Part shown: in pieces, positions 3,937-41,132 of the stretch
Layout: every line of letters begins with the position of its first letter
Position numbering within the stretch: the first letter of the stretch is position 1
Source of the DNA: Beijerinckiaceae bacterium
Lineage (GTDB): Bacteria; Pseudomonadota; Alphaproteobacteria; Rhizobiales; Beijerinckiaceae
Assembly (NCBI GenBank): GCA_024304885.1
Contig: JALJOM010000006.1
Coordinates: 1-64,000 of the forward strand
Length of the DNA stretch: 64,000 nt
Direction: 5' to 3'
Made by a program: the position numbers and the translations under genes
Notes under the pieces: generated by a model
Seen by the model: only the letters and a program-made list of their open reading frames with translations
Databases searched by the model: none
What the model was told of the DNA's origin: nothing

Positions 3937-3959
3937 ATCAAGCTGATCTGGGTCAAGCG

Positions 3960-24339: not shown

Positions 24340-27035
24340 GCCCGCTCCTCGCTCCGGACCTGGCACAGATCGAGCGCACGCTCGACGCCTTGCTGCAGAG
24401 GGACAGGGACGCTCGGGTAATGGCCATGCGGTCGCCCATACACCGCGGCGGCTGGCCCGAGACGGTTGAGCGTGACGGACGGCGGTTCCGCATCGCCTGG
24501 TGCCCCTCGGAGCTCGAGCTGCGTGAGCAGCTCGACGCGGCCGAGGGGGGCGACGACGGCGTGATCGTCTTGACGCCGCTGGACGAGGCGAAGCTGGGCG
24601 ATGACGTGGTGGCGCGCTTTCCCCGCGCCCGGCTGGAGCAGAGCGACTGCTGGTCGGCAGTTCGCGGCGTCTTCCGCGCCCGTGACGTCGATCACCGGCT
24701 GCGCCTGCCGGCGAACCGGTGGTTGGTGGACCTGCTACTGGAGCGGCCACCGGACCGAGGCTATGTCCCCGCGGCGGGCGGCATCCTCGATCTGGAGACC
24801 GCATGGCGCGCCGCCCTCGATATAGTCCTCGGGCTGCCGGATGGCCGCACCGACGCGACGGCTCTGCTCGACTGGAGCCTCGAACCGGCGGCTACGGAAC
24901 GTCTTGCACGCCTGCCCGGAGAGGCACGGGACGCCGTGGTGGAACGTCTGGGGGCAGAGGGTGGGCCGGCGGCCGCGCTCGTCCTGGCCGCGGCGGCGGC
25001 TCGTCGTGGCGCGGATGCGTTGCCCGTTGCGCTCGCCTGCGGCGTCGTGTTCGGGGAGGAGGATCCACGCCCTGTTCTGCGCGAGGCGGCGATCCGCTTG
25101 GAGCCGAAGGTAGGTGGCGTGCGGATCGAACCGGATGCGGGGCGAGCCCTCGCCGAGGCCGGCCGTCGCATCCTTAACCGCCTCGCCCGCGAAGAGCCGG
25201 CCGCTGCGCGGGCGGTGGAGATCCGCGCCGCTGCGATCCTTACGGAAGTGCGCGCAGAATCCGCGGCTGCGCTCAGCCCCGCGCTCGGCATCGGCGTGGA
25301 GGCGCGCATTGCAGAGGCCGCGATCGCAATCGAGCGAGCGGTGGAGTCGGGGCACGCGGACGATGCATCCGAGGCTTGGGATCTCGCCCGGCGTGCTAGC
25401 GCGCACGACCGGGCAAGAGAGAGCCGGGCGCGGCTGGACCGGCTCGTCATGGCGGCCAGGCTCGTCTGCTGGCTCGGTGTCCGACTCACACCTGCCTGGC
25501 GCAGCTTGTCGGAGGCCGCCTCTGCCTATGCTTCGGATGGAGGCTTCGTCGACTGGGCGCGTCACTCCATCCGAGCCGGCGATCCGATACCACGGGTCAG
25601 TGCCACTTATGCGCGGCTTGTCGAAACCGTTACGGCCCGGCGCGAGGAGGAGAACCACGCTTTTGCCGTCCTGCTCGAGGAGTGGATTCGGCGCGGCGCG
25701 GCGGACGACAGCCTCATGCCGGTCGAAGCCGTCCTGACCAGGGTCGTGGCGCCGATCGCCGCCACCAGAGCGCCCGTCCTGCTCCTCGTGCTCGACGGCT
25801 TGAGTTTTCGAGTGTGGCGCGAGCTGGCGGAGTCGGTCGCACCCCTCGGCTGGACCGAGCTCGTGCCGGATACTCCTCGGCATGCACTGCTCGTAGCAGC
25901 TGCCGTCTTACCGTCGGTGACCGAGGTGTCGCGGGCGAGCCTCCTTTGCGGAGCCTTGACCCGGGGAGATCAAACTGTCGAGCGCAACGGCTTCGCCGGC
26001 CACAAGAGCCTTGTCGCGGCCTCACGGGCTGGGTTCCCGCCCCGGCTGTTTCACAAGGCGGACCTCGGCGCGGGGCCCGAAGTAGACGCGAAGGTTCGGG
26101 AAGCCCTGACCGAGCCCGGCCAGCGTGTCGTCGGAATCGTGCACAATGCGGTGGACGCTCAGCTCTCGGGCAGCGACCAACTCGACCTGAGCTGGACGGC
26201 CGAGAAACTGCGGCAGATCGCGGCCCTTCTGCAGGCGGCAAGGGATGCTGGCCGCGTGGTCGTCGTCACCGGCGACCACGGACATGTCCTGGAAGAGGCT
26301 ACGGTCGTCGTCCCCGGCGGCCTGGGTGACCGCTGGCGGACTGCAGAGCGGCGACCGGGAGAAGGGGAGATTGCACTCGACGGCGACCGTGTCCTGTCCC
26401 CGGCTGGAGGCAAGTCTGTGGTCTCCGCCTGGAGCGAGAAAATTCGCTTCGGCGGGAAGCGCAGCGGTTACCATGGTGGCGCAAGTCCGCAGGAAGTGCT
26501 CGTGCCGGTCGCAGTGCTCACTGCGGGCCAGGTACTCGCCGGCTGGTCGGAGGCGCCACCGGCGGAGCCTACCTGGTGGCACGGGCGCAACGGGGAGACG
26601 GTACCTCGCGGTGAGGCCGCCCACGAGGTGTCGCCGGCACCGCTGCAGCGGCGCCGGGTCGAGCGAGGGCAGGGCGATCTCTTCGCGGCTGCGGCGAGAC
26701 CTTCCGCGGCATCACCGACGCAGCTCACTTGGCTCGATGTCCTGCTGGCCTCCGAGGTGTACGCGGCCCAGCGTAAGCTGGCCGGCCGCGCCGCGCCCGC
26801 GGACGATGTACTGCGCGCCCTCCTGCAGGCGCTCTCCACCCGTGGCGGGCGGATGACTCGCACCGGCCTCGCCCAGGTGCTGGGGGTGGCGGCATTTCGC
26901 CTGGGCGGTCTCCTCAGCGCGGCCCGGCGCGTATTGAACCTGGACCAGGCCCAAGTGCTGAAGGACGAAGGCGACGACATCGTCCTCGACGAGGCCCTCC
27001 TGCGTGCACAATTCGACCTCGGAGGCGACCGGTGA
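24336..27035 (+). CDS. pglZ: BREX-2 alkaline-phosphatase-superfamily protein PglZ
   Basis: An 899-residue PglZ-domain protein starting at the GTG that overlaps pglY. The alkaline-phosphatase-superfamily metal-binding segments are visible: LLLVLDGLSFRVWRELAE near residue 485 and VVVVTGDHGHVLEEATVV near residue 645. PglZ is the family-defining gene of BREX and is thought to be a metal-dependent hydrolase or nuclease in the defence complex. The gene is uniformly GC-rich. It ends in a GTGA overlap with brxD. Confidence 0.94.
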   Translation: MSPLLAPDLAQIERTLDALLQRDRDARVMAMRSPIHRGGWPETVERDGRRFRIAWCPSELELREQLDAAEGGDDGVIVLTPLDEAKLGDDVVARFPRARLEQSDCWSAVRGVFRARDVDHRLRLPANRWLVDLLLERPPDRGYVPAAGGILDLETAWRAALDIVLGLPDGRTDATALLDWSLEPAATERLARLPGEARDAVVERLGAEGGPAAALVLAAAAARRGADALPVALACGVVFGEEDPRPVLREAAIRLEPKVGGVRIEPDAGRALAEAGRRILNRLAREEPAAARAVEIRAAAILTEVRAESAAALSPALGIGVEARIAEAAIAIERAVESGHADDASEAWDLARRASAHDRARESRARLDRLVMAARLVCWLGVRLTPAWRSLSEAASAYASDGGFVDWARHSIRAGDPIPRVSATYARLVETVTARREEENHAFAVLLEEWIRRGAADDSLMPVEAVLTRVVAPIAATRAPVLLLVLDGLSFRVWRELAESVAPLGWTELVPDTPRHALLVAAAVLPSVTEVSRASLLCGALTRGDQTVERNGFAGHKSLVAASRAGFPPRLFHKADLGAGPEVDAKVREALTEPGQRVVGIVHNAVDAQLSGSDQLDLSWTAEKLRQIAALLQAARDAGRVVVVTGDHGHVLEEATVVVPGGLGDRWRTAERRPGEGEIALDGDRVLSPAGGKSVVSAWSEKIRFGGKRSGYHGGASPQEVLVPVAVLTAGQVLAGWSEAPPAEPTWWHGRNGETVPRGEAAHEVSPAPLQRRRVERGQGDLFAAAARPSAASPTQLTWLDVLLASEVYAAQRKLAGRAAPADDVLRALLQALSTRGGRMTRTGLAQVLGVAAFRLGGLLSAARRVLNLDQAQVLKDEGDDIVLDEALLRAQFDLGGDR

Positions 27036-28348
27036 TCGGCGCCCAGAGGCGCGCCGCGATCCTCGACGCGCTGCGCCGTGGGACGGTGCCGCGTGAGGGA
27101 CTGGGCGCCTTTGCCGTCGGCATGGAGCGCTTCGAGGCGGCGATAGACGACGACCTCGCAGCTGTCTCCGGTGGTCGCGGCGGGTTCAAGGCGGTCCGCG
27201 GCGAGTACGGCTCTGGTAAGACATTTCTGGCGCGATGGCTGCAGGAGCGGGCTCGCGGCCGAGGCTTCGCAACGGCGGAGGTGCAGATCAGCGAGACGGA
27301 GACACCACTCCATCGCTGGGAGACGGTCTACAGGCGCCTTGTCGAGCGGCTGGCCACCTCGGACATGCCCGAGGGGGCGCTGCGGCCGACAGTCGATGCT
27401 TGGTTTTATACGCTCGAAGAAGACGTGCTCGTCGAGGGTCGATTGGGCCCGAGCGACACCGATGCGCTGGCCAAGGCGACCGAGGCGTTGATGGAGCGGC
27501 GCCTGGCCTCGATCGCGCGGACGGCGCCCGCCTTTTCAGCTGTGCTCCGGGCGTATCGCCGGGCTCTCCTCGCCGGCGACCTCGCGCTTGCGGAAGGTTT
27601 GATAGCATGGCTCGCCGGTCAGCCCAATGTCGCGGCGGCCATGAAGCGCGCCGGCGGCGTGAAGGGGGAGCTCGACGCCTTCGGCGCGATGCACTTCCTC
27701 GCCGGCCTCCTCACCATTCTACGCGACAGCGGCAAGGCCGGGCTGGTGCTCGTGCTCGACGAGGCCGAGACGCTGCAGCGCATGCGCGCCGACACGCGCG
27801 AGAAGGGATTGAACGCGCTCAGGCAGCTCCTCGACGAGCTGGATGCTGGCCGCTATCCTGGGCTCTACCTCGTCCTGACCGGAACCACGGCATTCTTCGA
27901 AGGGCCGCAGGGCATCCAGCGCCTGTCGCCGCTCGCGCAGCGGCTGCACACGGAATTCGCCACTGACGAGCGCTTCGACAACCCGCGGGCTCCCCAGATT
28001 CGCTTGCGTGGCTTCGACCTCGACGCACTGGCAACAGTCGGCCGCAAAGTGCGCGACCTCTACGCCGAGCAAGCGGGCGATCCGTCCCGCCTGCTGAGTG
28101 TGGTCGATAACACCTACATTGCCGACCTCGCCAAGGGGGTCTCCGGGCGTCTCGGCGGGCGCGCCGGCGTTGCGCCACGCCTCTTCCTCCGCAAGCTCGT
28201 CGCCGACGTGCTCGACAGGGTCGACCAGTTCAGCGACTTCGATCCCCGCCGGCATTATGCGCCGACTGTCGACGATCGCGAGATGACACAGGTCGAACGC
28301 GCGGCCGCCGGCGTCAACGATGTGGACGACATCGAGCTCGACGCGTGA
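27032..28348 (+). CDS. brxD: BREX ATP-binding protein BrxD
   Basis: A 438-residue AAA-type ATPase of the BrxD family. Walker A is VRGEYGSGKTFLARWLQERA near residue 56 and Walker B is GLVLVLDEAETLQRMR near residue 240. A sensor-like YLVLTGTTAFFEGPQGIQRL follows. BrxD and the adjacent helicase gene are the accessory pair that distinguishes the BREX-2 operon from other subtypes. Translation begins at a GTG overlapping pglZ and ends in a GTGA overlap with brxHI. Confidence 0.9.
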   Translation: MIGAQRRAAILDALRRGTVPREGLGAFAVGMERFEAAIDDDLAAVSGGRGGFKAVRGEYGSGKTFLARWLQERARGRGFATAEVQISETETPLHRWETVYRRLVERLATSDMPEGALRPTVDAWFYTLEEDVLVEGRLGPSDTDALAKATEALMERRLASIARTAPAFSAVLRAYRRALLAGDLALAEGLIAWLAGQPNVAAAMKRAGGVKGELDAFGAMHFLAGLLTILRDSGKAGLVLVLDEAETLQRMRADTREKGLNALRQLLDELDAGRYPGLYLVLTGTTAFFEGPQGIQRLSPLAQRLHTEFATDERFDNPRAPQIRLRGFDLDALATVGRKVRDLYAEQAGDPSRLLSVVDNTYIADLAKGVSGRLGGRAGVAPRLFLRKLVADVLDRVDQFSDFDPRRHYAPTVDDREMTQVERAAAGVNDVDDIELDA

Positions 28349-30438
28349 CGGCCGCCTTCGACGCCCTCCACCCGGCTCTACGCTACCACATCGTCAGCAC
28401 GCTCGGCTGGCCCGACCTTCGCCCAACCCAGGTCGAGGCCATCGAGCCTATACTGGCGGGAGAGGATGTCCTCCTGCTTGCGCCGACTGCCGGCGGCAAG
28501 ACCGAGGCCGCAGTCTTTCCGCTGCTATCGCGCATCATGTCGAGCGGATGGCGGGGGCTCTCGGTGCTCTACGTCTGCCCGCTCAAGGCGTTGCTCAACA
28601 ACCTTGCGCCCCGGCTGGAGCGCTACACTGGCTTTCTCGGACTGCGCGTCGGGCTCTGGCACGGCGATGTCGGGGAACCGGCGCGCCGCCGCATGCTGCG
28701 CGACCCGCCCGAGATCCTCCTGACGACTCCCGAGTCTCTGGAGGCTATGATGATCTCGGCACGAGTGGAGCACACCGCATTCCTTGGCACAGTTCGCGTC
28801 GCGGTTGCCGACGAACTGCACGCTTTCGCAAGCGACGACCGTGGCTGGCACCTCCTCTTCCTCCTCGCGCGCATCGAGCGGCTCGCCGGGCGTCGCATCC
28901 AGCGCATCGGCCTGACCGCCACGGTTGGCAACCCAGGCGAGCTGCTGACCTGGTATTCCGCCGGGCGAGGGGGCCGGGTCGTCGGGCCGACCGTTCCGGT
29001 CTCCGATGGCGAGGTGACCGCCGACTATGTCGGCTCCGTCGGCAACGCGGTGACCGTGATCTCGCGGCTTCATCGCGGCGAGCGTCGCCTCGCTTTCGCC
29101 GACAGCCGCAGCCGCGTCGAAGAGCTGGCATCGGGCCTGCGGCAGGCCGGTGTGCGCACCTTCGTGTCGCATGCGTCGCTTTCACTGGACGAGCGCCGGC
29201 AGGCCGAGGCCGCATTCACCGGGGAGCCCGATTGCGTCATCGTCGCCACGTCGACGCTCGAGCTCGGCCTCGACGTCGGTGACCTCGACCGGGTCATCCA
29301 GGTCGGCGCCCCACCCGGTGTCGCCTCCTTCCTCCAGCGCATGGGTCGGACCGGCAGAAGGACCGGCACCACCCGGAACTGTCTCTTCCTCACCACCACC
29401 GACGAGGAGCTGCTGACCGCTCTGGCGCTTACTAGTCTGTGGCGCGACGGGACAGTCGAGCCTGTCGAACCGCCACCGAGACCTGCACACATCTTCGCCC
29501 AGCAGGTCATGGCACTCACCCTTCAGCTGGGCGGAATCCTGCGGACGGAACTCGGAAGCTGGCTCGGCGAGACGATCGACGCCGTTCCACATGAGGAGCG
29601 CCATGCGGTACTCGACCACATGCTGGCTTGCGATGTACTCTTCGAGGATGGCGGCATCCTCGGACTGGGCGTGCGAGGCGAGCGCGAATTCGGCAGGCGG
29701 CATTTTTCTGACCTTGTCGCAGTCTTCTCCGAACCGTTCGTCCTCGTTGTCAGGCACGGTCTATTTGATATTGGCACTGTCCATCCGGCCAGTCTCGTCC
29801 GGTCCCCCCGCGGCGAGGTTCCGATCCTTTCACTGGGTGGACGAAGTTGGAAGGTGATCGACGTCAGCTGGCGAACGCGCGAAGTTGCAGTCGTGCCCGC
29901 CGAAGGCGCCGGCAGATCTCGTTGGCTCGGGGCAGGGCGGAGCTTGTCGTCGAAGGTGTGCAGGGCTGTGGAGCGGGTTGTCGCTGGCGCCACACCCGGT
30001 TGCCGGTTGTCACGGCGTGCCGCAGCTGCACTTGCCGATATACGCTCACGTCTACCTTTCGTGGATGCCAGCCGGCTTCCTGTTGTGTCAGATGGCAAGC
30101 GAGGCGTTACGGTCTGGACATTCGGAGGTGGCGCGGTCTCGTCTTCGATCTCCCATGAATTCGTGCTAGCCGGTCTCACGGTCAGCAGCTTCGACGACTT
30201 CTCCGTATCCGTACGAGGTGCAAACGTCAGCGACGTTTCCCGATGTATCCGCCATATAGATCCCGAGGTTGCGCGCCCACAACTCCCCGATGATTTCGCA
30301 GCTGCCCTGAAGTTCGGATTGTGCCTGCCTGAAATCGTTGTTGCGAACGTCCTGTCGAGTAGGATCGCAGACCCAGCCTCGATGCGTGAGATCGTGTCGC
30401 GCGAGCCGAGGCTAGTGACGCATCTACGTGGTGACTAG
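28345..30438 (+). CDS. brxHI: BREX helicase BrxHI (Lhr-like)
   Basis: A 697-residue superfamily 2 helicase. Motif I is LLAPTAGGKTEAAVFPLLSR near residue 45, motif II VAVADELHAFAS near 155, motif III GLTATVGNP near 192 and motif VI QRMGRTGRR near 330, followed by an Lhr-like C-terminal region. It is the last gene of the BREX-2 chain. Up to about 29690 the DNA is as GC-rich as the rest of the operon; beyond that base use becomes clearly less GC-biased although the frame stays open to the stop. The 3' third may have been acquired by recombination. Confidence 0.9.
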   Translation: MTAAFDALHPALRYHIVSTLGWPDLRPTQVEAIEPILAGEDVLLLAPTAGGKTEAAVFPLLSRIMSSGWRGLSVLYVCPLKALLNNLAPRLERYTGFLGLRVGLWHGDVGEPARRRMLRDPPEILLTTPESLEAMMISARVEHTAFLGTVRVAVADELHAFASDDRGWHLLFLLARIERLAGRRIQRIGLTATVGNPGELLTWYSAGRGGRVVGPTVPVSDGEVTADYVGSVGNAVTVISRLHRGERRLAFADSRSRVEELASGLRQAGVRTFVSHASLSLDERRQAEAAFTGEPDCVIVATSTLELGLDVGDLDRVIQVGAPPGVASFLQRMGRTGRRTGTTRNCLFLTTTDEELLTALALTSLWRDGTVEPVEPPPRPAHIFAQQVMALTLQLGGILRTELGSWLGETIDAVPHEERHAVLDHMLACDVLFEDGGILGLGVRGEREFGRRHFSDLVAVFSEPFVLVVRHGLFDIGTVHPASLVRSPRGEVPILSLGGRSWKVIDVSWRTREVAVVPAEGAGRSRWLGAGRSLSSKVCRAVERVVAGATPGCRLSRRAAAALADIRSRLPFVDASRLPVVSDGKRGVTVWTFGGGAVSSSISHEFVLAGLTVSSFDDFSVSVRGANVSDVSRCIRHIDPEVARPQLPDDFAAALKFGLCLPEIVVANVLSSRIADPASMREIVSREPRLVTHLRGD

Positions 30439-30444
30439 GTTAGT

Positions 30445-30924
30445 GTGGATCAGGACGGACATGGGACACCACTGCCGAAGAGACCAGGGCTGGCCCTCCG
30501 GCCGAGTATTTCCATCGAAAGTGTGGAGTTACGCCAAGGGCACTGGGTGCTCAGAGCAGATGCATGTGAATCGGCTCCGAACTTTGACCCCTTTCGGCTT
30601 CCAATCATGACCCAGTCTGATTTTCGAAGCAGCTTGTATTGTCAATGGATTGCCTCCCAGAGCCCGGGGTCAATGTTCGGCGCCGATCCACAATCACTAC
30701 ACGATATGCGGGAATCCCCTCTACGTTCATATATCACTGTAGCAATTCTCGCCGGTCACCCTATTTCTTCGGCCGGGGGCGAAGGAATAAGCCTTCCAGG
30801 TCTATCGACTTACAAGGTCAGATCCCCAATAGCTGGAATCACCTACGTTGCGGCGATGGAGCTCGGCATAGAATGCGGAGTCGCGCTCTCGCACGCGATC
30901 GGAGAAAAACGCCCAGGACAGTAG
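30445..30924 (+). CDS. Hypothetical protein at the BREX 3' edge
   Basis: A 159-residue frame starting at a GTG 6 bp after the brxHI stop. No domain was recognised. Its last 40 codons run antisense over the end of the radical SAM gene at 30802-32217, which weakens the case. It could be a degenerate accessory gene or a chance frame; the close spacing to brxHI is the only positive sign. Confidence 0.28.
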   Translation: MDQDGHGTPLPKRPGLALRPSISIESVELRQGHWVLRADACESAPNFDPFRLPIMTQSDFRSSLYCQWIASQSPGSMFGADPQSLHDMRESPLRSYITVAILAGHPISSAGGEGISLPGLSTYKVRSPIAGITYVAAMELGIECGVALSHAIGEKRPGQ

Positions 30925-32217
30925 ATCCCGGTGGCGATATCCCAAGGATGTGAGCCGAATGCGACCGGGCTCCGGTTCTTCCGCAAGTCCCAATTCCTTC
31001 GCCGCCACAAGAAGCGGTTCGTAAATGTCGTGATGCGCCGCGAGGCCGAAGCGGTCAAGTTCGGCCAGATGCAGGTCAAATAGGTCCAAAACTAACCGTT
31101 TGCGCAAACGTTCTTCGTCAGTGAAACGGAACCCCGAGACCGCCTGCAACAAGCCACCCTCGATATGAGCCATGTAGGTTTGGACTTGACCCATTGAGGG
31201 GTTGGACGAGCCACCCACCAAGTAGTCGGCCGTGTTGTTATATGAGCGGGCGCCAGCACCGATCCCGAGAACGGGCACGCCCGCGAATTGCAGCGATTTC
31301 TGACGATATCCCCCGCGGCCAGGCAAGATGAATCGGACGTTGCTTTCCTGGATGTAGCCCGCACAGAGGAAGACATCGCGGGCGTGATCATATCGGGCAT
31401 ATAGCGAACGGTCGCGCTCGTAGGTATATTTATTTGTGCGGATGAACCAGGCGTCAGGCCGAATCGTAAGAAAATACGTACTGATCGTTTCAGGGCGTAT
31501 CTCCAGAAGCGCACGTACAGACGCCTCCCAACTCTTATCTGACTGGCCGTGAAATCCGATGATGAGATCCGTGCTCAGATTGCGGACGCCCGCGGAGCGC
31601 AACGCACTAATAGAGTCAAGGATCTGGTCAACATCTGCGCGCGCACGCCCGGCGTCGCGCAACTCACGCGGCTGAAATGACTGGACTCCAACGTTGACAC
31701 GATCCACTCCAAGCGCTACGAGCGCCCGAGCATAACCTTCCCCTGAGCGTCCGGAAAGCGAGTCTGGTGACGCCTCGATAGCTACTTCCTCTACCTCCGA
31801 GCGCCAAATGGGGCGAAGACGATCCAATTCGTCGAAGACGACGCGCAGTCGCTCCGGTCGGAGCAAAGTGGGTGTTCCCCCGCCAATATAAAGTGTGCGG
31901 ATCCGCCGCGTCTCGATTACGCGGCGTTGGAGACGCAACTGCCCGCGTAATGCCTCAACGTATCGTGTGTGGCTCTCATCCTCAGTGCAGATAATCGTAT
32001 AAAGATTACAGAAGCCACACTTGTATCCACAGAATGGGACGTGGATGTACAGATTGAGGTCGTCCCTGGAGAGTGCCTGGTCCGCTTCCCAAACGGCAGG
32101 GATCGAAGCAGGAGCCTCACTCACTAAATAAGCTGAGCGGGGCGGATAGGCGCAGACGAATGGGGGGATGCGCACTTCGCACAGCGCCTTCTCCAAGGTA
32201 TCGCGCACATCATTCAT
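30802..32217 (-). CDS. HemN/HemW-like radical SAM protein
   Basis: A 471-residue radical SAM enzyme, start ATG at 32217. The iron-sulfur cluster motif CGYKCGFC (Cys65, Cys69, Cys72) lies in YIHVPFCGYKCGFCNLY, closely resembling HemN/HemW proteins, and TLYIGGGTPTLLRPERL is the SAM-binding glycine motif of the same family. A HemN-like C-terminal domain follows with RFTDEERLRKRLVLDLFDL. It is not near any haem biosynthesis gene. It is divergent from the subtilase gene at 32671 across a 450-bp gap in a cluster with NUDIX, kinase and CHAT genes, so a role in a conflict system or in modifying a small molecule is possible. The substrate cannot be told from sequence. Confidence 0.82.
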   Translation of the reverse strand: MNDVRDTLEKALCEVRIPPFVCAYPPRSAYLVSEAPASIPAVWEADQALSRDDLNLYIHVPFCGYKCGFCNLYTIICTEDESHTRYVEALRGQLRLQRRVIETRRIRTLYIGGGTPTLLRPERLRVVFDELDRLRPIWRSEVEEVAIEASPDSLSGRSGEGYARALVALGVDRVNVGVQSFQPRELRDAGRARADVDQILDSISALRSAGVRNLSTDLIIGFHGQSDKSWEASVRALLEIRPETISTYFLTIRPDAWFIRTNKYTYERDRSLYARYDHARDVFLCAGYIQESNVRFILPGRGGYRQKSLQFAGVPVLGIGAGARSYNNTADYLVGGSSNPSMGQVQTYMAHIEGGLLQAVSGFRFTDEERLRKRLVLDLFDLHLAELDRFGLAAHHDIYEPLLVAAKELGLAEEPEPGRIRLTSLGYRHRDLLSWAFFSDRVRERDSAFYAELHRRNVGDSSYWGSDLVSR

Positions 32218-32670
32218 AGTCAAACCCTGCTGTCCTCTCGACTATTCACGCACTGTCCCCGGACATTCGGAACGGACGTCTTTGCATAATCAAAAACAGA
32301 CCCCTGTACCGACGACCCGTTCAGGCCTGTATACATTGAACAGCGGCGGTCTTTTGCAAGCGCGCGCCACGGCGAGATTGTTCACCATCCAGTGGCCAGG
32401 CTCATACGAATGTTCCCCTGGATTCTTCATCTTGCCTCTCAGGACCAGCTCGACCATGGCGAAGCCTGAACCTCTCCCCGCACGATGCGGACAGCCTCGC
32501 TCTTGAAAAATTGCGATGCTCATGGTGTCAGAAGGCCCGTTCTCCATGTCATGTGCAAACTGCCAAAATATATGTGCGCACAGGGTGACATTTGCCACCT
32601 CTGGCTTCACGCTTTCCGATGCTACGTGCTATCTTGCAGGGGTCCTCACACCTTCGACTTTGGGATTTCC
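32218..32670. other. Divergent intergenic region, radical SAM / subtilase
   Basis: About 450 bp that should hold the promoters of two divergent genes. A frame open across part of it would extend the subtilase upstream, but the extension is cysteine-rich and unlike subtilase propeptides. No strong hairpins or operators were noticed. Confidence 0.4.
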
Positions 32671-33843
32671 ATGATCCAAGGGGGCAGCGTGCAGCAATAC
32701 GTCATCTTGGAGAACCTTCCGGCGAGGCGTTCCCCCCCGAACGCGATAGCGAGTGGGCGGACAGCGGCGGCTGATACGCGGGTCACCGTGGACTCGGTTC
32801 CCAAAGCGACCCTAGCCGACCTAAGACGCGATCCCCGTATTGCTGCGGTCGCACCCCTCATACCGACAAAGCTGGTGGTTCCGTCAGGCAGCGCAAGACC
32901 AATGGCGGAAGCTTGGGGAATTGTAGCAGTCGGCGCAGATCGGACTGTCTCGAACGGGCACGACGTTGTGGTAGCCGTGTTAGACACCGGCGTGGACACC
33001 AATCACCCGGCATTTGTAGGCATCACCATCGAGGGGGAGAACTTTACCCGAGATGGGCACTTTGACGTGGTGGGCCACGGCACCCACTGCATGGGGATTA
33101 TTTGTGGCCGAGATGTGGGTGACACTCAAATTGGCATCGCTCGGGGCGTCACCCGAGTGCTTAGCGGTAAGGTATTGAATGACAAAGGAGCTGGCAACAC
33201 GGCCCAACTTTTCTCTGGCCTTCAATGGGCAATTGACAAGGGAGCGAATGTTGTCAACTTGTCTCTCGGCTTTGACATCCCTGGTTTGGTCGAAAATCTG
33301 GTCGACTCTGCTTGGCCGCCTGCACTTGCTACCTCTTTGGCGCTCGATGCTTATCGTGAAAATCTTCTCATGCTTAATGCATTTATGGCCATGGTTCGCG
33401 CTCGTGTCCCATTCGGAGGTGACGCCGTGATCATTGCGGCGGCCGGCAACGAAAGCCGGCGTACGTTACGTCCCGATTATCGCATTGGCGCGTCTCTACC
33501 TGCCGCGGGCCAAGACATCATAAGCGTGGCAGCCCTTGAGCGTTCGACAGGCGGCTTGGCGGTAGCGGACTTCTCCAATTACCAGGTGTGCGTAAGTGCA
33601 CCGGGAGTCGATATCCTATCAGCCGCCCCAGGCGGTGGCCTCATAACCTTGTGCGGCACCAGCATGGCGGCCCCGCACGTGTCGGGCGTCGCCGCGCTTT
33701 GGTGGGACTATCTTCGGAATATGGGATTGAAAGTGTCCGGCGAACTTGTCCGGGCTAAAGTGATTGGTACCGCCTGCATATCTCCCCTCGCGCCCGGGTT
33801 TGACCCGCTCGATGTTGGTGCTGGCCTTGCATGTGCTCCATGA
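32671..33843 (+). CDS. Subtilisin-like serine peptidase (S8), no signal peptide
   Basis: About 390 residues from the ATG at 32671. The complete S8 triad is present: Asp105 in VAVLDTGVDTNHP, His136 in VGHGTHCMG and Ser331 in CGTSMAAPHVSG, with the oxyanion Asn260 in AAAGNES. A short inhibitor-like N-terminal region (about residues 8-65, QYVILENLPARR onward) precedes the catalytic domain. No signal peptide is seen from this start, so the protease is predicted to act in the cytoplasm, unusual for subtilases but known for conflict-system effectors. It sits directly upstream of the NUDIX-kinase-CHAT genes. Confidence 0.88.
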   Translation: MIQGGSVQQYVILENLPARRSPPNAIASGRTAAADTRVTVDSVPKATLADLRRDPRIAAVAPLIPTKLVVPSGSARPMAEAWGIVAVGADRTVSNGHDVVVAVLDTGVDTNHPAFVGITIEGENFTRDGHFDVVGHGTHCMGIICGRDVGDTQIGIARGVTRVLSGKVLNDKGAGNTAQLFSGLQWAIDKGANVVNLSLGFDIPGLVENLVDSAWPPALATSLALDAYRENLLMLNAFMAMVRARVPFGGDAVIIAAAGNESRRTLRPDYRIGASLPAAGQDIISVAALERSTGGLAVADFSNYQVCVSAPGVDILSAAPGGGLITLCGTSMAAPHVSGVAALWWDYLRNMGLKVSGELVRAKVIGTACISPLAPGFDPLDVGAGLACAP

Positions 33844-33949
33844 TCGGACTCGTCATTTGTTTCGTGTTTCCTGCAGGAAACGTGCGTAGCCTCGCTTACG
33901 ATTCTCGCGTTCCGCTCTGGCGTGAACCACGCTCTTTGAAAGTTTTCCA

Positions 33950-34450
33950 ATGATTGTCGAGACCCGCACCGACGTGGATACGGACTTTCAGGCGGCTGGG
34001 TGCTTCTGCCTACACAGAGACGAACTGCTAATCATACAGCGGCAACGACATAAAGCGTTCGAGCTTCACTGGGCAATCCCCACTGGTAAAATCGAAGGAG
34101 AAGAGTCCGCCCGCGAGTGCATGGCACGGGAGCTAATGGAAGAACTGGGGCTTCGGATTGATCCCTGTAAATTGGAAGAACTCAGTAATTTCACGATCGA
34201 GCACGATGAGGTGACTTTCAAGTACGTAGCCTTTGTACTGCGGTTAGAACAGCGGCCACCGATACATCTCAAAGAAGACGAAGTCAGAAAGTGTGATTGG
34301 GTACCTGTCCACAACATCATTAAGCGGCGTGTTGTGCCGTATTTCTACAACACCGTACAGGCGCTGTTGCAGCGGCTCGACGGGAGCCCAAGGCAGCCTT
34401 ATCTCTTCCCAGTGCCCGAGGCGAAAAGTGCCAAACGCCGACCGTCTTGA
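33950..34450 (+). CDS. NUDIX hydrolase
   Basis: A 166-residue NUDIX-fold hydrolase with a perfect 23-residue box from Gly to Leu: GKIEGEESARECMAR followed by ELMEELGL. This metal-binding motif hydrolyses nucleoside diphosphates linked to another moiety. The rest is a compact NUDIX domain with a charged tail. The gene begins 106 bp after the subtilase and its end overlaps the kinase-like gene, so these two are coupled. The substrate is unknown; with a deoxynucleoside-kinase-like neighbour, a modified nucleotide or nucleotide signal is a reasonable guess. Confidence 0.9.
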   Translation: MIVETRTDVDTDFQAAGCFCLHRDELLIIQRQRHKAFELHWAIPTGKIEGEESARECMARELMEELGLRIDPCKLEELSNFTIEHDEVTFKYVAFVLRLEQRPPIHLKEDEVRKCDWVPVHNIIKRRVVPYFYNTVQALLQRLDGSPRQPYLFPVPEAKSAKRRPS

Positions 34451-35117
34451 GGCGGAAGTGGACGTCGAATACGGAGCGAGACTAAATAGGGCTCTGGAAC
34501 CGGGACAGCACGTGCTGGTCCTTGGCCATTCCGCATCGGGTAAGAGCACGACCGCGAAAGCGGCTGCCACGATGCGAGGCCTTCGTTACGTGTACGATTC
34601 GGCCCTTCTTGAGAGCGCGCGATTCCAACACTACACGGACCGGCTATTTGGTCAGGCTGACTTCCATGCTTTCATGCCGTACGAAGTTGAGGCTCTTTTG
34701 GTGCGTTTTTTGCAAAACCGCCATCCCGCCGGGGATTGGATCTGCGATCAAGGCGTCCACTCGATTTTGGCGTACTCGCGCGCCCGTCATGCGCTCGGCG
34801 AATTGGACAACCATATTTACCAAACTATCTACGCACTCTTCTTGACGCTAGCAGCGGAGAGCCCGACCCCACGCCTCGTGGTACGGTTTCGGTGCGCCCC
34901 CCTTGAGGCACGGCGGCGTCTGGAGACCCGTGGACGCCCGCACGAAACGACTTCGCTTACCGTGCCGTTCATTGAGGAACTCGATCAAGCCTACACACAC
35001 ATACTGGCAAAGTTCCCGCCCGCGCCTGCCATCGAGGTGATAGAGACGACGGGCGTTAGCAAATCTGCCGTCGTCCACCGCTTTCTGACACTTATCGATG
35101 CGCATTCAACTCCGTAG
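34428..35117 (+). CDS. Deoxynucleoside-kinase-like P-loop protein
   Basis: About 229 residues from the GTG at 34428, which has a gagg site upstream and overlaps the NUDIX gene by 23 bp. The P-loop is VLVLGHSASGKSTTAKAAAT (GHSASGKST, about residues 33-41). Further motifs fit the dNK family: WICDQGVHSILAYSRARHAL in the substrate region and RLETRGRPHE followed by a Tyr-containing helix (LDQAYTHILAKF), like the arginine-rich lid of deoxynucleoside kinases. It overlaps the CHAT gene by 20 bp. Kinase activity on a nucleoside is a family-based inference; another P-loop role is possible. Confidence 0.7.
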   Translation: MPNADRLEAEVDVEYGARLNRALEPGQHVLVLGHSASGKSTTAKAAATMRGLRYVYDSALLESARFQHYTDRLFGQADFHAFMPYEVEALLVRFLQNRHPAGDWICDQGVHSILAYSRARHALGELDNHIYQTIYALFLTLAAESPTPRLVVRFRCAPLEARRRLETRGRPHETTSLTVPFIEELDQAYTHILAKFPPAPAIEVIETTGVSKSAVVHRFLTLIDAHSTP

Positions 35118-36921
35118 CTGGAGCGGCGAGCGGCCGCTCTTCTTCACGGCTGGCAATCTCCCGACGCAGCAAGCTTACAGCCTTACTGGCGAAGAGGTAA
35201 TGGATGCATTCGTGGTGTCTCTCCTGCGAAGCGATCAAGTCCTCCTTGCCGCGTCCTTCTATTTCGAGTCCGCTGCAACGCGGGCGCTGGTGCGGCATTT
35301 TCCTACCGTTTGGCGCGCCACTGCGAACGCCGCATTATTCTTCATCAACACTGCCTACCCAACAGTACTCGATCACGGCTTAGGCAAAATTGACAAGAGT
35401 CCCATCAGCTTCAAGCCGTACTCGGACCCAAAGCAGGTACGCAGGCGCGGGATCGACCTGGACCGCTTAGGACAGGTCGGGATTCGCGATGACGTGGACA
35501 TTAGCGCTACAATCGCAGGCGCGTGGGTCCGCTCGTGTACGTCTTCTGAACGTGGCAGCGTCGGTGCTATCTTGCGAGCCAAGGTAGATCCTTCGGCCAT
35601 GGCCGCAGCGACTGTGGTCTGCGTAAATCTCGCGGAACTTCGCCAGCACGACTTTATTTGGCCCTCGATCGAGGCGGAGATTCGCTCAAACCCCGTCCTA
35701 GCACCGGTGTATGGGGATCTACGTCGCACGCTGGCCGATCTTTATGCCGAGACCATGTCAATCACTCTCGGGGCCGTACAGACCACACCAGCCCTGACGC
35801 TGACCGCGCTACCCCTTACAGAGCGAGGGATCGGACACCTGGGCCGCTTCAGCTCAGTACTGCGCCGGGTAGGCATCGATCCCAGAATGGTGCGTGAAGA
35901 CGCTAAGCTTCTGGGCCTTCTTCAGCTCGACGAGCTCGCGCTACTACGACGACTTGACGATGAAGTACTGAGATCAGCGCTTGAACTCCAGGAAAGCGCG
36001 AACGAACTGTGGCGCGCCATTAGCCTCTCCGAGGAGCGAGAACATTTTCGTCCGCAGCTTTCGGACCTTGATGTGCGTCGATCACTTGCTTCCGCCTGTG
36101 ACGCGGTGGGTGTAAAAGCTTCGGACGGACTATTGGCGCGCGTCACTGCTGTACAGCGACTTTATGGTGGCGCTTTCCTGCACTGTTTTAGAAATCGTGT
36201 TCAGGAAATACTTGAGCATCGGCTGAAATTACAGGTCCCGCCGCATCGGCAAGCCAGCCCCGAGATTGCCTTTCAGCAGCAGGTTCTGCTGTTTGTAACC
36301 GCCGACCCCAGCGTCGGGACGCCCTCCATGCGTCTAGAGACGGACCGGGAACTCAAGGCGATCAAGAGCGCTCTCAGCAACTTCGGGGACCGTTCAGCCC
36401 TGCAGGTGGTCGATATTTCATCCATAGAAGCTAGGGAAATACAGCCAGCTCTCCTCCACCACCGCCCACGCTTTTTTCACTTTTCGGGACACGGAGATGC
36501 CGACGGCAGAGTCTTCCTGCAAGCGCCGGAACGCGGCGTAGTTCACGTCAATATCGATGCAATATTAGATGCTCTCAGCCTCGTGCCTGTGCCGGTCGAG
36601 TGCGCCTTGTTCAATTCCTGCTATTCGTTATCCGCCCTCGATAAACTTCAGCCCAAAGGCGTGCACTACCTGATCCTCGCGGCCGGACGCATCCCCGACG
36701 AAGAAGCACGGGCATTTTCATCCGGATTTTATCTGGCGCTCGCCGCGGGGTTCGGAGTTCGCGAAGCTTTTGCACTCGGGCGCGTTGAGTTAGCAATTGC
36801 GAACTTTGACACCGATCTCCTCCAGTTGTTTGAGCGCATAGACGACCCCGGAACTGCTGCTCCCTACGAAAGCAATCCTCAAGGTGGTGAATGCCGGACA
36901 TCCTATCGTCGGATCTCCTAG
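35098..36921 (+). CDS. CHAT-domain (caspase-like) protease with unknown N-terminal region
   Basis: A 607-residue protein. The C-terminal third is a CHAT domain with the caspase-like dyad His465 in FHFSGHGDADGRVFL and Cys508 in CALFNSCYSLSALDKL, followed by the typical FSSGFYLALAAGFGVREAFA. The first 400 residues are not recognised and may be a sensor or substrate-binding part. CHAT proteases often act as effectors in bacterial immunity and cell death. Overlap with the kinase-like gene shows operon organisation. Codon use is less GC-biased than in the BREX genes and in the conjugation region. Confidence 0.82.
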   Translation: MRIQLRSWSGERPLFFTAGNLPTQQAYSLTGEEVMDAFVVSLLRSDQVLLAASFYFESAATRALVRHFPTVWRATANAALFFINTAYPTVLDHGLGKIDKSPISFKPYSDPKQVRRRGIDLDRLGQVGIRDDVDISATIAGAWVRSCTSSERGSVGAILRAKVDPSAMAAATVVCVNLAELRQHDFIWPSIEAEIRSNPVLAPVYGDLRRTLADLYAETMSITLGAVQTTPALTLTALPLTERGIGHLGRFSSVLRRVGIDPRMVREDAKLLGLLQLDELALLRRLDDEVLRSALELQESANELWRAISLSEEREHFRPQLSDLDVRRSLASACDAVGVKASDGLLARVTAVQRLYGGAFLHCFRNRVQEILEHRLKLQVPPHRQASPEIAFQQQVLLFVTADPSVGTPSMRLETDRELKAIKSALSNFGDRSALQVVDISSIEAREIQPALLHHRPRFFHFSGHGDADGRVFLQAPERGVVHVNIDAILDALSLVPVPVECALFNSCYSLSALDKLQPKGVHYLILAAGRIPDEEARAFSSGFYLALAAGFGVREAFALGRVELAIANFDTDLLQLFERIDDPGTAAPYESNPQGGECRTSYRRIS

Positions 36922-37033
36922 GCGGACCATTTTGTCATGCGGGAGCTAAGGACACACCATTTTGAGCGATAAAGAACTTGTTAAATCAATCTCTTGTGGC
37001 GGTGGAGCCGACGTTCAAAAGGGTTCGTTTTAA

Positions 37034-37453
37034 CGCGGTGCGCTTTCCCAGCGGGATAGAGCCTGGGGCTCGCCCGCCCGCTGGTCCCATGTCAGAATCG
37101 GTGATGAACGGATCGCGTGGATCGAGTCTTACGCGCCCGCCTTCGTGCTGGGGAAGCCGGCGACAGAGGCGGCCAACAATTTGACCGGCCTTCGATCGGG
37201 GGGCCTGGATTCGGATGCAGTGATGTCGCTCTATGCCGATGATCAGTTCATCCACCTCATACCTTCCGTCGATTTCGAGGAGCAGCGACGGTTTCGGCGG
37301 GGGACTCAGGCGTCCGAGGTAATCGATTATTTCGCGGCCAACTTTGGACCCAAGAGGTGGCGCGCCCCGAGGAATGCGCGACTCTCTCTACTTCGCTTGT
37401 GTCCGATTGGAAGTTCGTGTGCGCAACCGATCCCGCGCTCGGCCAAATGGTAA
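37034..37453 (+). pseudogene. Unrecognised gene remnant without a start codon
   Basis: A plus-strand frame open from 37034 to 37453 encodes protein-like sequence (RIAWIESYAPAFVLGKPATE, then GLDSDAVMSLYADDQFIHLI and RRFRRGTQASEVIDYFAANF), but the only candidate starts lie well inside it and a stop at 37031 blocks extension. It looks like the 3' part of a gene whose front was lost. No family recognised. Confidence 0.4.
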
Positions 37454-37485
37454 GTCCCGGAGGCCCGAGCGGTGACCAAGCGGTG

Positions 37486-38946
37486 CTAGACGGCAAAGGT
37501 CGGCAAGACCGGTCCCGTGGCTCCATGCCCCAGACGGCACCCAACCTCGCTGCTGCATTCCGTGCAGCAGGGATCAACCCGCGGTGATGACATCGACAGC
37601 GCGCGCGACCGGCTCTCATAGCGCGCGAAATCAAGAGTGCCTGATGGCGCAACAAGTGCGGTCATGAAGAAGAGAAAGTCGTCGCAGGCGTGTGCGGCCC
37701 CTACTCCGTTCAGCGTGATGACGCTGGGCGCGATGACTTCGTCATCGTCCACGTAGCGTTGCCCCTTCCGCTCACGGTCGACCTTGGCCTCGTCCGCGAG
37801 CTTGCCCGGGTTTATCAGTTGATTACACCAGAGGCAGTTGATGCCGGGGCGCAGAGGGCGAACGACGCTGAAGACGTCGGTGAGGCGACCGCTTTCGTCG
37901 ACAGAGACCTTGCTGCCAATCTGGACGCCGGGGATCAGATATTGATGCACGATGGCGTTAACGAGCAATCGCGCGCGCATCTCATCCGCCGCGAGGAAAA
38001 TGTAGTCGCATTCAAGGAGGTCGGCTGTAGCCGACGGCTCGAGGATGTTGCGCGCAATTGCGTCAACATGGGCGGAGGGATTCGCCTCCGTGATGACGCG
38101 GCGCGCGATATCAACTTTGCGCGTCGCGTGCGCCAGCGCGAGGCGGCGCACCCAGGCCGGCGCAGTAGGGCTGCTCAGTCCCCACCAGACATCACGGCGT
38201 CGCGACCCAACGACGCGGGGGATATTGGTAGGATCGAGCCGGTCGGGATCGATCAAGACAAACGCTCCCACGCCGAGCCGGGCCAAATACTCGGCCACAA
38301 GAGAGCCGACGCCGCCGAGGCCGATGATCGCTACCCTCGCGCCGGCCAGAATGAGCTGCCCCGCTTGACCAAACATCCTCGTCTGACGGTCGTATTGCGG
38401 ATCGCCCTTAGCGCGGCTGCCGCGCGGTGCTGGGCGAAGGACGCGCCGTTGCCGGCCTATGATTTCAGTGCGATCGAGTGCGACGCGACGCCCTCCCGGC
38501 AGCCAGATGTCACCTGCGACAGCGCCGTGGGCGAAGACCAGCGCGCCGACCGCATTCCCTCGACTGATGTCGAGAAGAGCGGGGTATCCGCGTTCGTGGC
38601 TATTCAGGTCGTCTGAGGAGAACGCCACCGAACCCGACCCGCCGTGATTGTGGATCGCGAGATAAACGAGCTGTTCATCGCGACAGGTCAGGATATGGCG
38701 CCGCACGAACTCGGCCCTGAGCATGCGGTAGCCACGCTTGCCAGGGACGTAATCGACGCCGTCCTCTGCGAGAAAGAGATCGCGGGCAAGAAGCCGGGCG
38801 CAGCCGCTTCGCAAGGGATGAATGCCCGCAACGAGGACGGCGCCATGCTCGTCACCGTCACCGGGAAACAGATGCCCCTGCAGCGTCTCGAAGAGGGTTT
38901 CGGGGATGGTCAGCGACCAGGGCCCGTCTATCGCGTCTTGAGCCAC
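37486..38946 (-). CDS. JAB-E1 fusion: JAMM peptidase-like domain plus ThiF/E1 adenylyltransferase
   Basis: A 486-residue fusion. The N-terminal JAB/JAMM-like domain has Glu33, His99-x-His101 in LAIHNHGGSGS, and Ser110/Asp113 in AFSSDDLN, fitting a metal-dependent deubiquitinase-like peptidase. The ThiF/E1 domain follows with YDRQTRMFG (about 185-193), nucleotide-binding VAIIGLGGVGSLVAEYLA (about 205-222), LIDPDRLDPTNIPR, and zinc-site pairs CLWC (371-374) and CTEC (461-464). It would activate the neighbouring multiubiquitin protein and may also trim or remove it. The GTG start overlaps the E2-like gene by 19 bp. Similar JAB-E1 pairs act in bacterial ubiquitin-like and CBASS type II systems. 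Confidence 0.85.
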   Translation of the reverse strand: MAQDAIDGPWSLTIPETLFETLQGHLFPGDGDEHGAVLVAGIHPLRSGCARLLARDLFLAEDGVDYVPGKRGYRMLRAEFVRRHILTCRDEQLVYLAIHNHGGSGSVAFSSDDLNSHERGYPALLDISRGNAVGALVFAHGAVAGDIWLPGGRRVALDRTEIIGRQRRVLRPAPRGSRAKGDPQYDRQTRMFGQAGQLILAGARVAIIGLGGVGSLVAEYLARLGVGAFVLIDPDRLDPTNIPRVVGSRRRDVWWGLSSPTAPAWVRRLALAHATRKVDIARRVITEANPSAHVDAIARNILEPSATADLLECDYIFLAADEMRARLLVNAIVHQYLIPGVQIGSKVSVDESGRLTDVFSVVRPLRPGINCLWCNQLINPGKLADEAKVDRERKGQRYVDDDEVIAPSVITLNGVGAAHACDDFLFFMTALVAPSGTLDFARYESRSRALSMSSPRVDPCCTECSSEVGCRLGHGATGPVLPTFAV

Positions 38947-39350
38947 TGGATCACCTTGAGGAGTTTGTGTAGCGGGGTTTCGAGGCCGGCGGTGTCCTTG
39001 CGATTGGAGCGCCGGGATACCTGGACGGCGGTGCGCGCTGGCATGTCACCCGGCGTCTTGAGGGCAGCCTGATCAGGAAAAGCGTGGCCAGTGGAGATAC
39101 CCTCGCCGAGGGACGCACCGTCAAGGCGCGCTAGGTCCGGGCGCACAAAATGGGGATAGACGTCGGCGTAGGGACAGGTCGAGGGTATGTGGAAACCGAT
39201 CCAGCTGTCGTCCTGTGCGAAAGGCGCCCCCAGGGTGACGCCTTCCACCATGACGTAGGCTCCGCCTTCGCGATCGGCGGCGACGAGCACGCGGTCCCGG
39301 TTGAACTGGCCGGTGATTGCGTCGATAGCCTTCTGCACAGCCGGGCTCAT
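38928..39350 (-). CDS. Prokaryotic E2-like ubiquitin-conjugating protein
   Basis: About 140 residues from the ATG at 39350; an ATG at 39356 is also possible, but the strong gggggag site sits best for 39350. The segment WIGFHIPSTCPYADVYPHFV resembles the YP...P part of the UBC fold in the E2 families linked to multiubiquitin operons. Its only cysteine is Cys59 in that segment, ahead of where a canonical E2 nucleophile would be, so its catalytic state is unclear. It lies between the multiubiquitin and JAB-E1 genes and overlaps the latter. Confidence 0.7.
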   Translation of the reverse strand: MSPAVQKAIDAITGQFNRDRVLVAADREGGAYVMVEGVTLGAPFAQDDSWIGFHIPSTCPYADVYPHFVRPDLARLDGASLGEGISTGHAFPDQAALKTPGDMPARTAVQVSRRSNRKDTAGLETPLHKLLKVIQWLKTR

Positions 39351-39363
39351 CGCCATCTCCCCC

Positions 39364-40086
39364 TTAGCTGTTGTCGTCGTCGGCGATCGCAAGGTAACGT
39401 TGGCCAGGCTTCACCCGCACGCGGTCGCGGTCACCGACGATGCGGGTTTGACCAGGGCCGGTCTCCAAACTCAGGACGAAGTCCAGCTGGATCGCCACAC
39501 CGTCGTCGATGGCGGCCTGCTTGATCTCAAGGCCGGTACGACCGCTCCGGCGAATAGTCACCGGCTTCTCGTTCACATAGATCTCGATCTCAAGAGCGCG
39601 AGGGCGGAGCTTGAAGATTTCGACCCCCTTGCAGCCGAGGTCGACGATGTCGTCGTCGTCAAGCTCGCGGTCGGGATGCTCGTCGCGCCTGAGCACCACG
39701 ACCAGGTCCTCACCCGGACGTCCCGCAAGCACCTTCACCGTCGCGCCCGAAATCAGTGCGCACGGCCATTCGAGGCGCAGGCCCTCGACTTCGATTCGGA
39801 AGCTACGGTCGCTCTCTGCAACGATGAATTTCTCGATGCCGCGCGCCGCGATATCGGTCAGCTCTTCGAGACGAAGCTCTTCCAAGGCTCCGTCAGGAAG
39901 CCACTGCAGGACGATGTAGCCGGTAGAGTCGCGGTGACCAGCGGCCGCGATGATCTGGCGGCCGGAGGGGACCGGATCGCGGAGGACGTGACGGACGAAA
40001 ACAAGGTCAGGGCCGGCGATCTCGACCGGCCACTTTTGGTCGCGCGCCGCGGCCATATCATTCAGCGTATTTTCCTGAACCGACAT
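39364..40086 (-). CDS. Multiubiquitin-domain protein (tandem ubiquitin-like folds)
   Basis: A 240-residue protein read as three consecutive ubiquitin-like beta-grasp units (roughly residues 15-80, 85-155 and 158-235). Related segments include RSFRIEVEGLRLEWPCALIS and LEIEIYVNEKPVTIRRSGRT, and each unit closes with a short strand such as VEIFKLRP or YLAIADDD. It begins an operon with E2-like and JAB-E1 genes, the layout known for prokaryotic multiubiquitin systems. The C-terminus ends DDDNS and lacks the di-glycine used for conjugation, so it would need processing or act otherwise. The start ATG at 40086 has a gaggag site. Confidence 0.78.
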   Translation of the reverse strand: MSVQENTLNDMAAARDQKWPVEIAGPDLVFVRHVLRDPVPSGRQIIAAAGHRDSTGYIVLQWLPDGALEELRLEELTDIAARGIEKFIVAESDRSFRIEVEGLRLEWPCALISGATVKVLAGRPGEDLVVVLRRDEHPDRELDDDDIVDLGCKGVEIFKLRPRALEIEIYVNEKPVTIRRSGRTGLEIKQAAIDDGVAIQLDFVLSLETGPGQTRIVGDRDRVRVKPGQRYLAIADDDNS

Positions 40087-40140
40087 GAGTCATTGCTCCT
40101 CACTGAGTTCGTTGACCGACGACTCGCGGTATGCGATCGT

Positions 40141-40206
40141 GGATCACATGTAAGACAGCATGGAATCGTTCGGCTTACATGTCAACCACTGTCTTAAATG
40201 TAATCC
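40141..40206. promoter_or_regulatory. Inverted-repeat operator between the ubiquitin-like operon and XRE gene
   Basis: ggatcacatgtaagac (40141-40156) is repeated in inverse as gtcttaaatgtaatcc (40191-40206) with two mismatches over 16 bp. An additional inverted core cttacatgt lies between them at 40174-40182. Three related half-sites in a divergent promoter region are typical of an XRE/CI-type repressor. The natural regulator is the XRE protein at 40225. Confidence 0.65.
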
Positions 40207-40224
40207 ACGGAGGGAGCTAATGAC

Positions 40225-40557
40225 ATGGTAACGCTGGAGAATCTCGGCCTGCGCGTAAGGGAAAAACGCGGCGAGCAGGGCATTCGCGCAGCAGCAAAGG
40301 AAATAGGAATCAGTCACGCGACGCTGTCGCGGGTGGAGCGTGGCTTCATGCCGGACCTTGCCAACTACCGCCGTATCTGTCGATGGCTGGGGATAAAAGT
40401 CGAGGACGTCACGGGGGTGAGCGACGCGCCCACGTCCGTCGCCCGCGTCCATTTTAGGAAGAAGCCGACCGTCAGCGCTAAGACGGCTCAGAAACTCGCC
40501 CAGATGATTTTAACCGCCCAGGTGGCGATGGCAGGCATTCGGATGGAAGAGGACTAA
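40225..40557 (+). CDS. XRE-family transcriptional regulator
   Basis: A 110-residue Cro/CI-type protein. The helix-turn-helix is at about residues 20-45: GIRAAAKEIGISHATLSRVE, then NYRRICRWLGIKVEDVTG. A short basic tail follows and may be the site cut by the ImmA-like protein encoded 2 bp downstream. It probably represses both its own operon and the divergent multiubiquitin operon through the repeats at 40141-40206. The ribosome-binding site ggaggga precedes the ATG at 40225. Confidence 0.88.
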   Translation: MVTLENLGLRVREKRGEQGIRAAAKEIGISHATLSRVERGFMPDLANYRRICRWLGIKVEDVTGVSDAPTSVARVHFRKKPTVSAKTAQKLAQMILTAQVAMAGIRMEED

Positions 40558-40559
40558 AG

Positions 40560-41132
40560 GTGTCCAACCTGCGGCGTGGCTTCAAGACTTGGTGCGAGAA
40601 CGCCGCGGCGAGTTACCGGCGCGATCTTGCGCTTAGTCGTGCTTCGCCTCTCGACCCGCTGGCGCTGGCGCGGCATCTGCGCATCGTCGTGTGGGCGCCT
40701 GAGGAAATTCCTGGAATCAAGAACGACGTTCTTTTTCACCTGACTGTGACCGATCCAGACAGCTGGGACGCGGTCACGATCCAGTCAAACGGCATCACCG
40801 CGATTATCCTGAACAGCGCGCCGGACATCGGGCGCCGGAATAACTCGCTCGCTCACGAACTTTCGCACATAATCCTCGAACATGAGCCGGCACATATATT
40901 CCACACGCCTGACGGGCATCTCATGATGAACGAGTACAACGCAGTCCACGAAGAGGAAGCCAACTGCCTCTCCAGCACGCTGCTGCTGCCGCGCGAGGCT
41001 CTGCTGCAGGCCGTTCGGCGCGGCCTGAGCGATAGCGCCATGGCCCAGCATTTCGGGGTTAGTCCGCAGCTCCTTAAAATGCGCCGCAATATCACCGGCG
41101 TGGACCGGCAGATGGCCTATAGCCGCGGCTGA
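40560..41132 (+). CDS. ImmA/IrrE-family metallopeptidase
   Basis: A 190-residue zinc peptidase with the HELSH motif (His99, Glu100, His103) in NNSLAHELSHIILEHEPAH and a downstream acidic ligand region HEEEANCLSSTLLLPREALL, as in ImmA/IrrE proteins. These proteases cleave a partner XRE repressor on stress. Its GTG start is 2 bp after the XRE gene, so the pair fits an ImmR/ImmA-like switch for the divergent ubiquitin-like operon. Confidence 0.88.
   Translation: MSNLRRGFKTWCENAAASYRRDLALSRASPLDPLALARHLRIVVWAPEEIPGIKNDVLFHLTVTDPDSWDAVTIQSNGITAIILNSAPDIGRRNNSLAHELSHIILEHEPAHIFHTPDGHLMMNEYNAVHEEEANCLSSTLLLPREALLQAVRRGLSDSAMAQHFGVSPQLLKMRRNITGVDRQMAYSRG

Follow-up and report, generated by a model that had tools for sequence, protein, structure and literature searches.

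A plasmid-borne gene block combining a zymogen-like subtilase with a CHAT protease: a candidate protease-centred conflict locus in a Beijerinckiaceae bacterium

The window analyzed here is a 64,000-nucleotide stretch from a Beijerinckiaceae bacterium (positions 1 to 64,000 of contig JALJOM010000006.1, assembly GCA_024304885.1), and the element in question is a locus at 32671-36921 that encodes, all on the plus strand, a pro-subtilisin-like serine protease of family S8 (32671..33843), a NUDIX hydrolase (33950..34450), a deoxynucleoside kinase (dNK)-like P-loop kinase (34428..35117) and a CHAT cysteine protease (35098..36921). A HemN/STM4012-like radical SAM gene lies beside it on the minus strand (30802..32217). 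Our best reading is that the locus belongs to a known, protease-centred kind of conflict system and carries nucleotide enzymes not met before in such loci. On the sequence comparisons set out below, we judge the chances to be about even that it is a plasmid-borne anti-phage or anti-plasmid locus with the subtilase and the CHAT protease as its core. A first-pass annotation, made from the letters of the DNA, had listed these five genes as a possible undescribed system; open reading frame (ORF) calls, Pfam searches and a motif check bore out all five at these coordinates, with catalytic motifs intact in every protein, including His465 and Cys508 of the CHAT protein and Ser331 of the subtilase.

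The subtilase forms a distinct pro-subtilisin family with its relatives. Plasmid-borne members match most of its length at 43-49% identity; besides its own, two relatives (43% and 38%) occurred in 398 phylum genomes, and a viral contig (L123) carried one at 43% identity. A scan of genome contigs added at least 19 at 40-50% identity; these were screened by two general subtilase peptide patterns and are a sample rather than a census. The 398-genome phylum sets used for the subtilase, the kinase and the N-terminal half of the CHAT protein were drawn alike and are apparently the same genomes. All search samples were small relative to known diversity, and the only large scan had the subtilase as its query.

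A subtilase-CHAT partnership is supported at the sequence level because members of this family often lie near protease, nuclease or TIR genes, three of them with CHAT next door. A CHAT, caspase, TIR, ThsB, trypsin or NucA gene was found within 6 kb in 10 of the 27 family loci listed and in none of 60 ordinary subtilase loci (Fisher 2.1e-6); for the genome-scan loci listed alone, the figures were 4/19 and 0/60 (p 0.0026). Loci under 12 kb were more frequent among controls (14/60) than in the family (1/27), and the contrast persisted when they were dropped, both overall (10/26 vs. 0/46, p 9.9e-6) and for the genome-scan loci listed (4/18 vs. 0/46, p 0.0048). Independently of the hidden Markov models (HMMs) built here, Pfam identified trypsin together with Endonuclease_NS or Endonuclease I in L034, L036 and L048, trypsin in L047, CHAT in L024 and L025, and ThsB_TIR in L030. 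The direct subtilase-CHAT neighbors occur in Sphingomonas (L022), where the CHAT gene begins 33 nucleotides (nt) behind the subtilase, and in Agrobacterium (L024) and S. meliloti (L025), where it precedes the subtilase by 33 and 22 nt, respectively. The L022 CHAT protein is annotated as hypothetical and is CHAT by HMM only (6e-36); residues 255-466 of the window CHAT protein align with it at 4e-6. The subtilase family thus looks like a conflict gene that is able to pair with another protease, CHAT included, and is often unpaired.

Several further features were seen around family members. On the Sphingomonas plasmid, L022 7628-11926 is a compact multi-protease locus with a ThsB-like TIR, a caspase, the subtilase, the unannotated CHAT protein and a TIR. 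SduA, PtuB and PtuA matches (Shedu, Septu) lie no farther than about 5 kb from the subtilase in L123 (3155-9170), a contig that appears Mu-like by eye. Two loci, in Microvirga and in a Dyadobacter metagenome-assembled genome (L034 11842-13680, L036 8105-9742), encode animal haem peroxidase-like proteins next to the family subtilase and a trypsin-nuclease protein. A 38% identical relative at L031 9377-10549 is probably a dead protease, judging by its sequence, because it has LLGTG and GTAMA in place of the usual catalytic Asp and Ser motifs.

The window subtilase matches Peptidase_S8 at 1.5e-33 (116.8 bits against a Pfam cut-off of 21.8) and has Asp105, His136, Asn260 and Ser331, numbered from ATG 32671; the ORF opens at 32485, and ATG 32671 was adopted because relatives start near its equivalent. 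A prodomain-like module spans approximately residues 1-72, and a helical insertion approximately residues 203-244. This insertion before the oxyanion Asn is family-wide, and the ordinary subtilase aligned with the family lacks it. An AlphaFold model, computed from the window protein together with L123 and 18 genome-scan relatives (all 19 listed but L041), reached a predicted local distance difference test (pLDDT) score of 90.6, with 57-84 over the first 30 residues. In this model the subtilase looks zymogen-like in architecture, because the closest PDB structures are unprocessed pro-subtilisins (template modelling score 0.65-0.68 by query length). We infer that its prodomain is inhibitory and that the protein is located in the cytoplasm.

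The CHAT domain is C-terminal, at approximately residues 390-575, and is preceded by about 385 residues without a recognized domain. The Pfam CHAT match (2.4e-04, 21.1 bits) falls under the curated cut-off of 24, and the search of the whole genome scored it at 22.9 bits; we assign the protein to this class on the His465/Cys508 dyad and on its similarity to annotated CHAT proteins. In tblastn, plasmid genes annotated as CHAT matched with 8e-13 as the best listed value (H16), and PDB entry 8tl0 resembled residues 395-559 at 8.4e-04. Searching 289 genomes of the class with the whole protein gave three matches including its own, the other two confined to the CHAT domain. The N-terminal half stands more alone: residues 1-385 had seven matches in the 398 phylum genomes, one of them their own and six of them weak, at 8.0e-4 to 0.0098, with none of the six convincing, and profile comparison with Agrobacterium and Leisingera CHAT proteins gave no match. 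A single-sequence fold of the protein (pLDDT 33) was discarded. The genome holds a second CHAT-model match, on contig C3, which at 31.0 bits exceeds the cut-off and is caspase-like by the HMM built here; no gene of the block occurs around it.

The NUDIX protein is a clear member of its family (3.9e-18, 66.2 bits against a Pfam cut-off of 21.1), with a NUDIX box from residue 46, and it also hits the PADLOC candidate PDC-S07 at 1.1e-17. Relatives were scarce in the samples searched: at 1e-14 only its own genome matched (1/269), at 1e-8 no plasmid record did, and phages yielded a single match (4e-8, 30%). The kinase is more divergent, its Pfam dNK match (9.3e-06, 26.0 bits) lying under the curated cut-off of 27 and its best PDB match being a dNK at only 0.016. 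Its dNK-like character is seen in a Walker A motif, GHSASGKS, from residue 33, and in an alignment with seven dNK-like proteins in which the P-loop, the conserved Asp and the lid Arg...Glu are retained. Five of the 398 phylum genomes gave a match, its own among them; the others were dNK-like genes at 22-29% identity. Weak hits were obtained in 2 of 16 genomes bearing a family subtilase (16 of the 19 genome-scan loci listed) and in 1 of 149 genomes from the phylum of one actinobacterial relative; plasmids and phages gave none, and no close relative was found in any of these sets. Viral contigs scanned with the kinase, CHAT, NUDIX and radical SAM proteins through an exact short-peptide prefilter likewise gave no relative.

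The NUDIX, kinase and CHAT genes are overlapping or closely spaced, as the first-pass annotation had noticed. The kinase ORF opens at 34293, and its chosen start, GTG 34428, overlaps the NUDIX gene by 23 nt; an alternative, GTG 34458, lies 7 nt past the NUDIX stop. From its first ATG (35098), the CHAT gene overlaps the kinase gene by 20 nt. Because the three are so tightly packed, coupled expression is suggested. No terminator-like site is listed between the subtilase and CHAT genes, and no sigma-70-like or terminator-like site in the intergenic region at 32218..32670; across 30300-37700 the promoter-like (two) and terminator-like (one) sites were no more numerous than in shuffled sequence. 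The lower GC content attributed to the block also held up: GC content at third codon positions (GC3) is 0.60-0.63 in all five genes and 0.66-0.84 in 19 other measured genes of the window, so that the five lowest values among 24 genes are those of the block, with the proviso that a mechanical list of 54 ORFs has some shorter ones elsewhere at 0.57-0.65, many of them perhaps not genes. This shared composition suggests a common origin of the five genes, with a single event not proven.

If the subtilase-CHAT reading is right, the two proteases would act in series. The CHAT protein, with its large unique N-terminal half, would be sensor and effector, and the pro-subtilisin its substrate or amplifier: an infection cue would relieve the N-terminal half, CHAT would cut the subtilase prodomain (or the reverse), and the freed, broader protease would lead to cell arrest or death. 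The NUDIX hydrolase and the kinase could make, remove or monitor a nucleotide that sets the CHAT sensor. A more specific form of this scheme seems to us doubtful: kinase and NUDIX would write and erase a nucleotide signal, which might be phosphorylated and stem from the breakdown of phage DNA, and the CHAT N-terminal half would read it and activate the pro-subtilisin in a two-protease cascade. The circuit from nucleotide signal to proteolysis advanced in the first-pass annotation stays plausible and unproven. Were the core reading true, the pro-subtilisin family would be one more among the proteases that accompany CHAT, caspase and trypsin genes in conflict loci and would offer a testable bacterial two-protease cascade; were the nucleotide reading true, signaling would arise from salvage-type enzymes, not from cyclases or TIR domains.

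The locus resembles several described systems without coinciding with any of them. Relatives of the window subtilase have a NucA-trypsin protein beside them in L036 and L048 and an Endonuclease I-trypsin protein in L034. The HMMs built here matched none of NucA, trypsin, caspase and TIR in the window, which has CHAT, NUDIX and the dNK-like kinase instead; the remainder of the contig (64001-121276) had no match to these HMMs either. The absence of TIR and caspase also separates it from the TIR-caspase Thoeris-like loci L022 and L030, which we take to be type IV and which carry a ThsB-like TIR, a caspase and a 49% or 43% identical subtilase. PDB entry 8tl0 is presumably a SAVED-CHAT protein; no SAVED domain was matched in the window CHAT protein at E 0.1, and its N-terminal half had no convincing relative in the 398 phylum genomes. 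IetAS pairs the IetS subtilase with the IetA ATPase; the window subtilase scores 44.7 bits with the IetS model against a cut-off of 900, and IetA is not among the families listed for nine proteins. Several peptidases per locus are likewise a feature of the peptidase-based, NTP-dependent conflict systems to which NucA-trypsin belongs (Kaur et al., 2020; PMC7159879). That paper reports S8 subtilisin domains on the flanks of NucA with trypsin and counts Nudix domains among the effector components presumed to act on ADP-ribose or NAD; the strings "chat" and "dnk" occur 0 times in its text. Nuclease-protease pairs and canu (caspase-nuclease) loci are described in another report as residing in defence islands, the protease cleaving and thereby activating its partner enzyme (Tuck et al., 2025; PMC12799240), while a nuclease partner was not identified in the window block. 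No paper on the five-family combination was found in a literature that largely excluded subscription journals.

A number of observations weigh against a subtilase-CHAT core, and most of them are also what one would expect had the block been assembled by chance in a plasmid defence hotspot, with the subtilase, the NUDIX-kinase-CHAT trio and the radical SAM gene acquired successively as three units, an explanation that we hold to be a serious possibility short of even. In the flanking DNA retrieved (10 kb at most, often less), HMMs detected no NUDIX, kinase or radical SAM homologue at the 27 family loci, and phmmer detected none at 87 subtilase loci. Because no second locus with all five genes turned up, the five-gene system of the first-pass annotation was not borne out in these samples, its subtilase-CHAT part being the one that recurs. 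Moreover, 17 of the 27 family loci listed have no protease, nuclease or TIR neighbor by these models, several of these subtilases sitting, by eye, among housekeeping genes; the gap between the subtilase and NUDIX genes is 106 nt; and the DUF3800 gene remnant downstream of the CHAT gene points to turnover at the site. BLASTP of the window CHAT protein against that of S. meliloti gave nothing significant. The neighborhood contrast itself must be read with the fact that the neighbor HMMs were seeded from family members' neighbors, with seeds taken from 8 of the 10 positive loci, a choice that favors the family, and that L051 (37% identity) belonged to neither the family nor the control set. Against successive acquisition stand the GC3 range common to all five genes, below that of the 19 others, and the adjacency of subtilase and CHAT at three further loci.

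Two other explanations detach part of the block from the proteases. The NUDIX and kinase proteins might be a MutT-like and a dNK-like enzyme of the nucleotide pool or of salvage, kept for their own sake, which we consider quite unlikely: their motifs are intact and the nearest kinase relatives found are dNK-like genes, with a folK-like and a panB-like gene seen by eye on either side of two of the four hits in other phylum genomes, but the kinase is distant from these, and its gene and the NUDIX gene are packed together with that for CHAT. Far less probable still, in our estimate, is a biosynthetic or peptide-maturation cluster, with the radical SAM enzyme acting on a product and the subtilase cutting off a leader. 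The radical SAM protein matches Radical_SAM at 6.9e-24 (Pfam), with CxxxCxxC from residue 65 intact, and its top NCBIfam match is the STM4012 family (3.5e-75), at 253.6 bits below the cut-off of 380; it scores 196 bits against a rhizobial plasmid protein that has a methyltransferase partner and 149 against one STM4012-operon member. That greater closeness to the rhizobial pairs speaks for peptide maturation, as does a subtilase match to the PatA/PatG model that is far under the cut-off (41.8 vs. 421 bits). However, the window holds no STM4011, STM4013, STM4014 or STM4015 homologue nor a partner of either operon type, searching the genome with the rhizobial methyltransferase at 1e-5, without a positive control, gave nothing, and the recurrent neighbors of the subtilase family are other proteases. 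We treat the radical SAM gene as probably separate cargo of the same origin or an independent accessory to the candidate subtilase-CHAT locus. At 1e-30, only its own match was found among 60 relatives, and 20 plasmid records matched, all below 60% identity. Its ORF opens at TTG 32223, with ATG 32217 the likely start. The first-pass annotation had it facing the subtilase, but it diverges from that gene across about 450 nt and converges instead with brxHI.

The contig (C6) is 121,276 bases long, and the window is most likely part of a 121-kb repABC-type plasmid, judged from its repA/repB-type genes, because it has matches to ParA-type ATPase and ParB/RepB partition genes near the contig end (858-3142) and because positions 858-5250 match 1,817 of 72,556 plasmid records, all 12 of those listed aligning over repA/repB and mostly annotated so. 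In line with the first-pass annotation, the five genes sit in a defence-island setting, flanked on one side by a complete BREX set (PglW, PglX, BrxC/PglY, PglZ, BrxD and BrxHI; 12575-30438), which by gene content we take to be type 2, and on the other by a ThiF/E1-like gene, an unassigned gene for a 154-residue protein and a multi-ubiquitin gene (37486-40086, by Pfam). Repeats in 30000-41000 are short pairs only, which we regard as chance. Compared with the same 72,556 plasmid records, the DNA at 30439-37485 had no match besides the DUF3800 remnant (37160-37347, just downstream of the CHAT gene), which is 73-78% identical to copies in three records.

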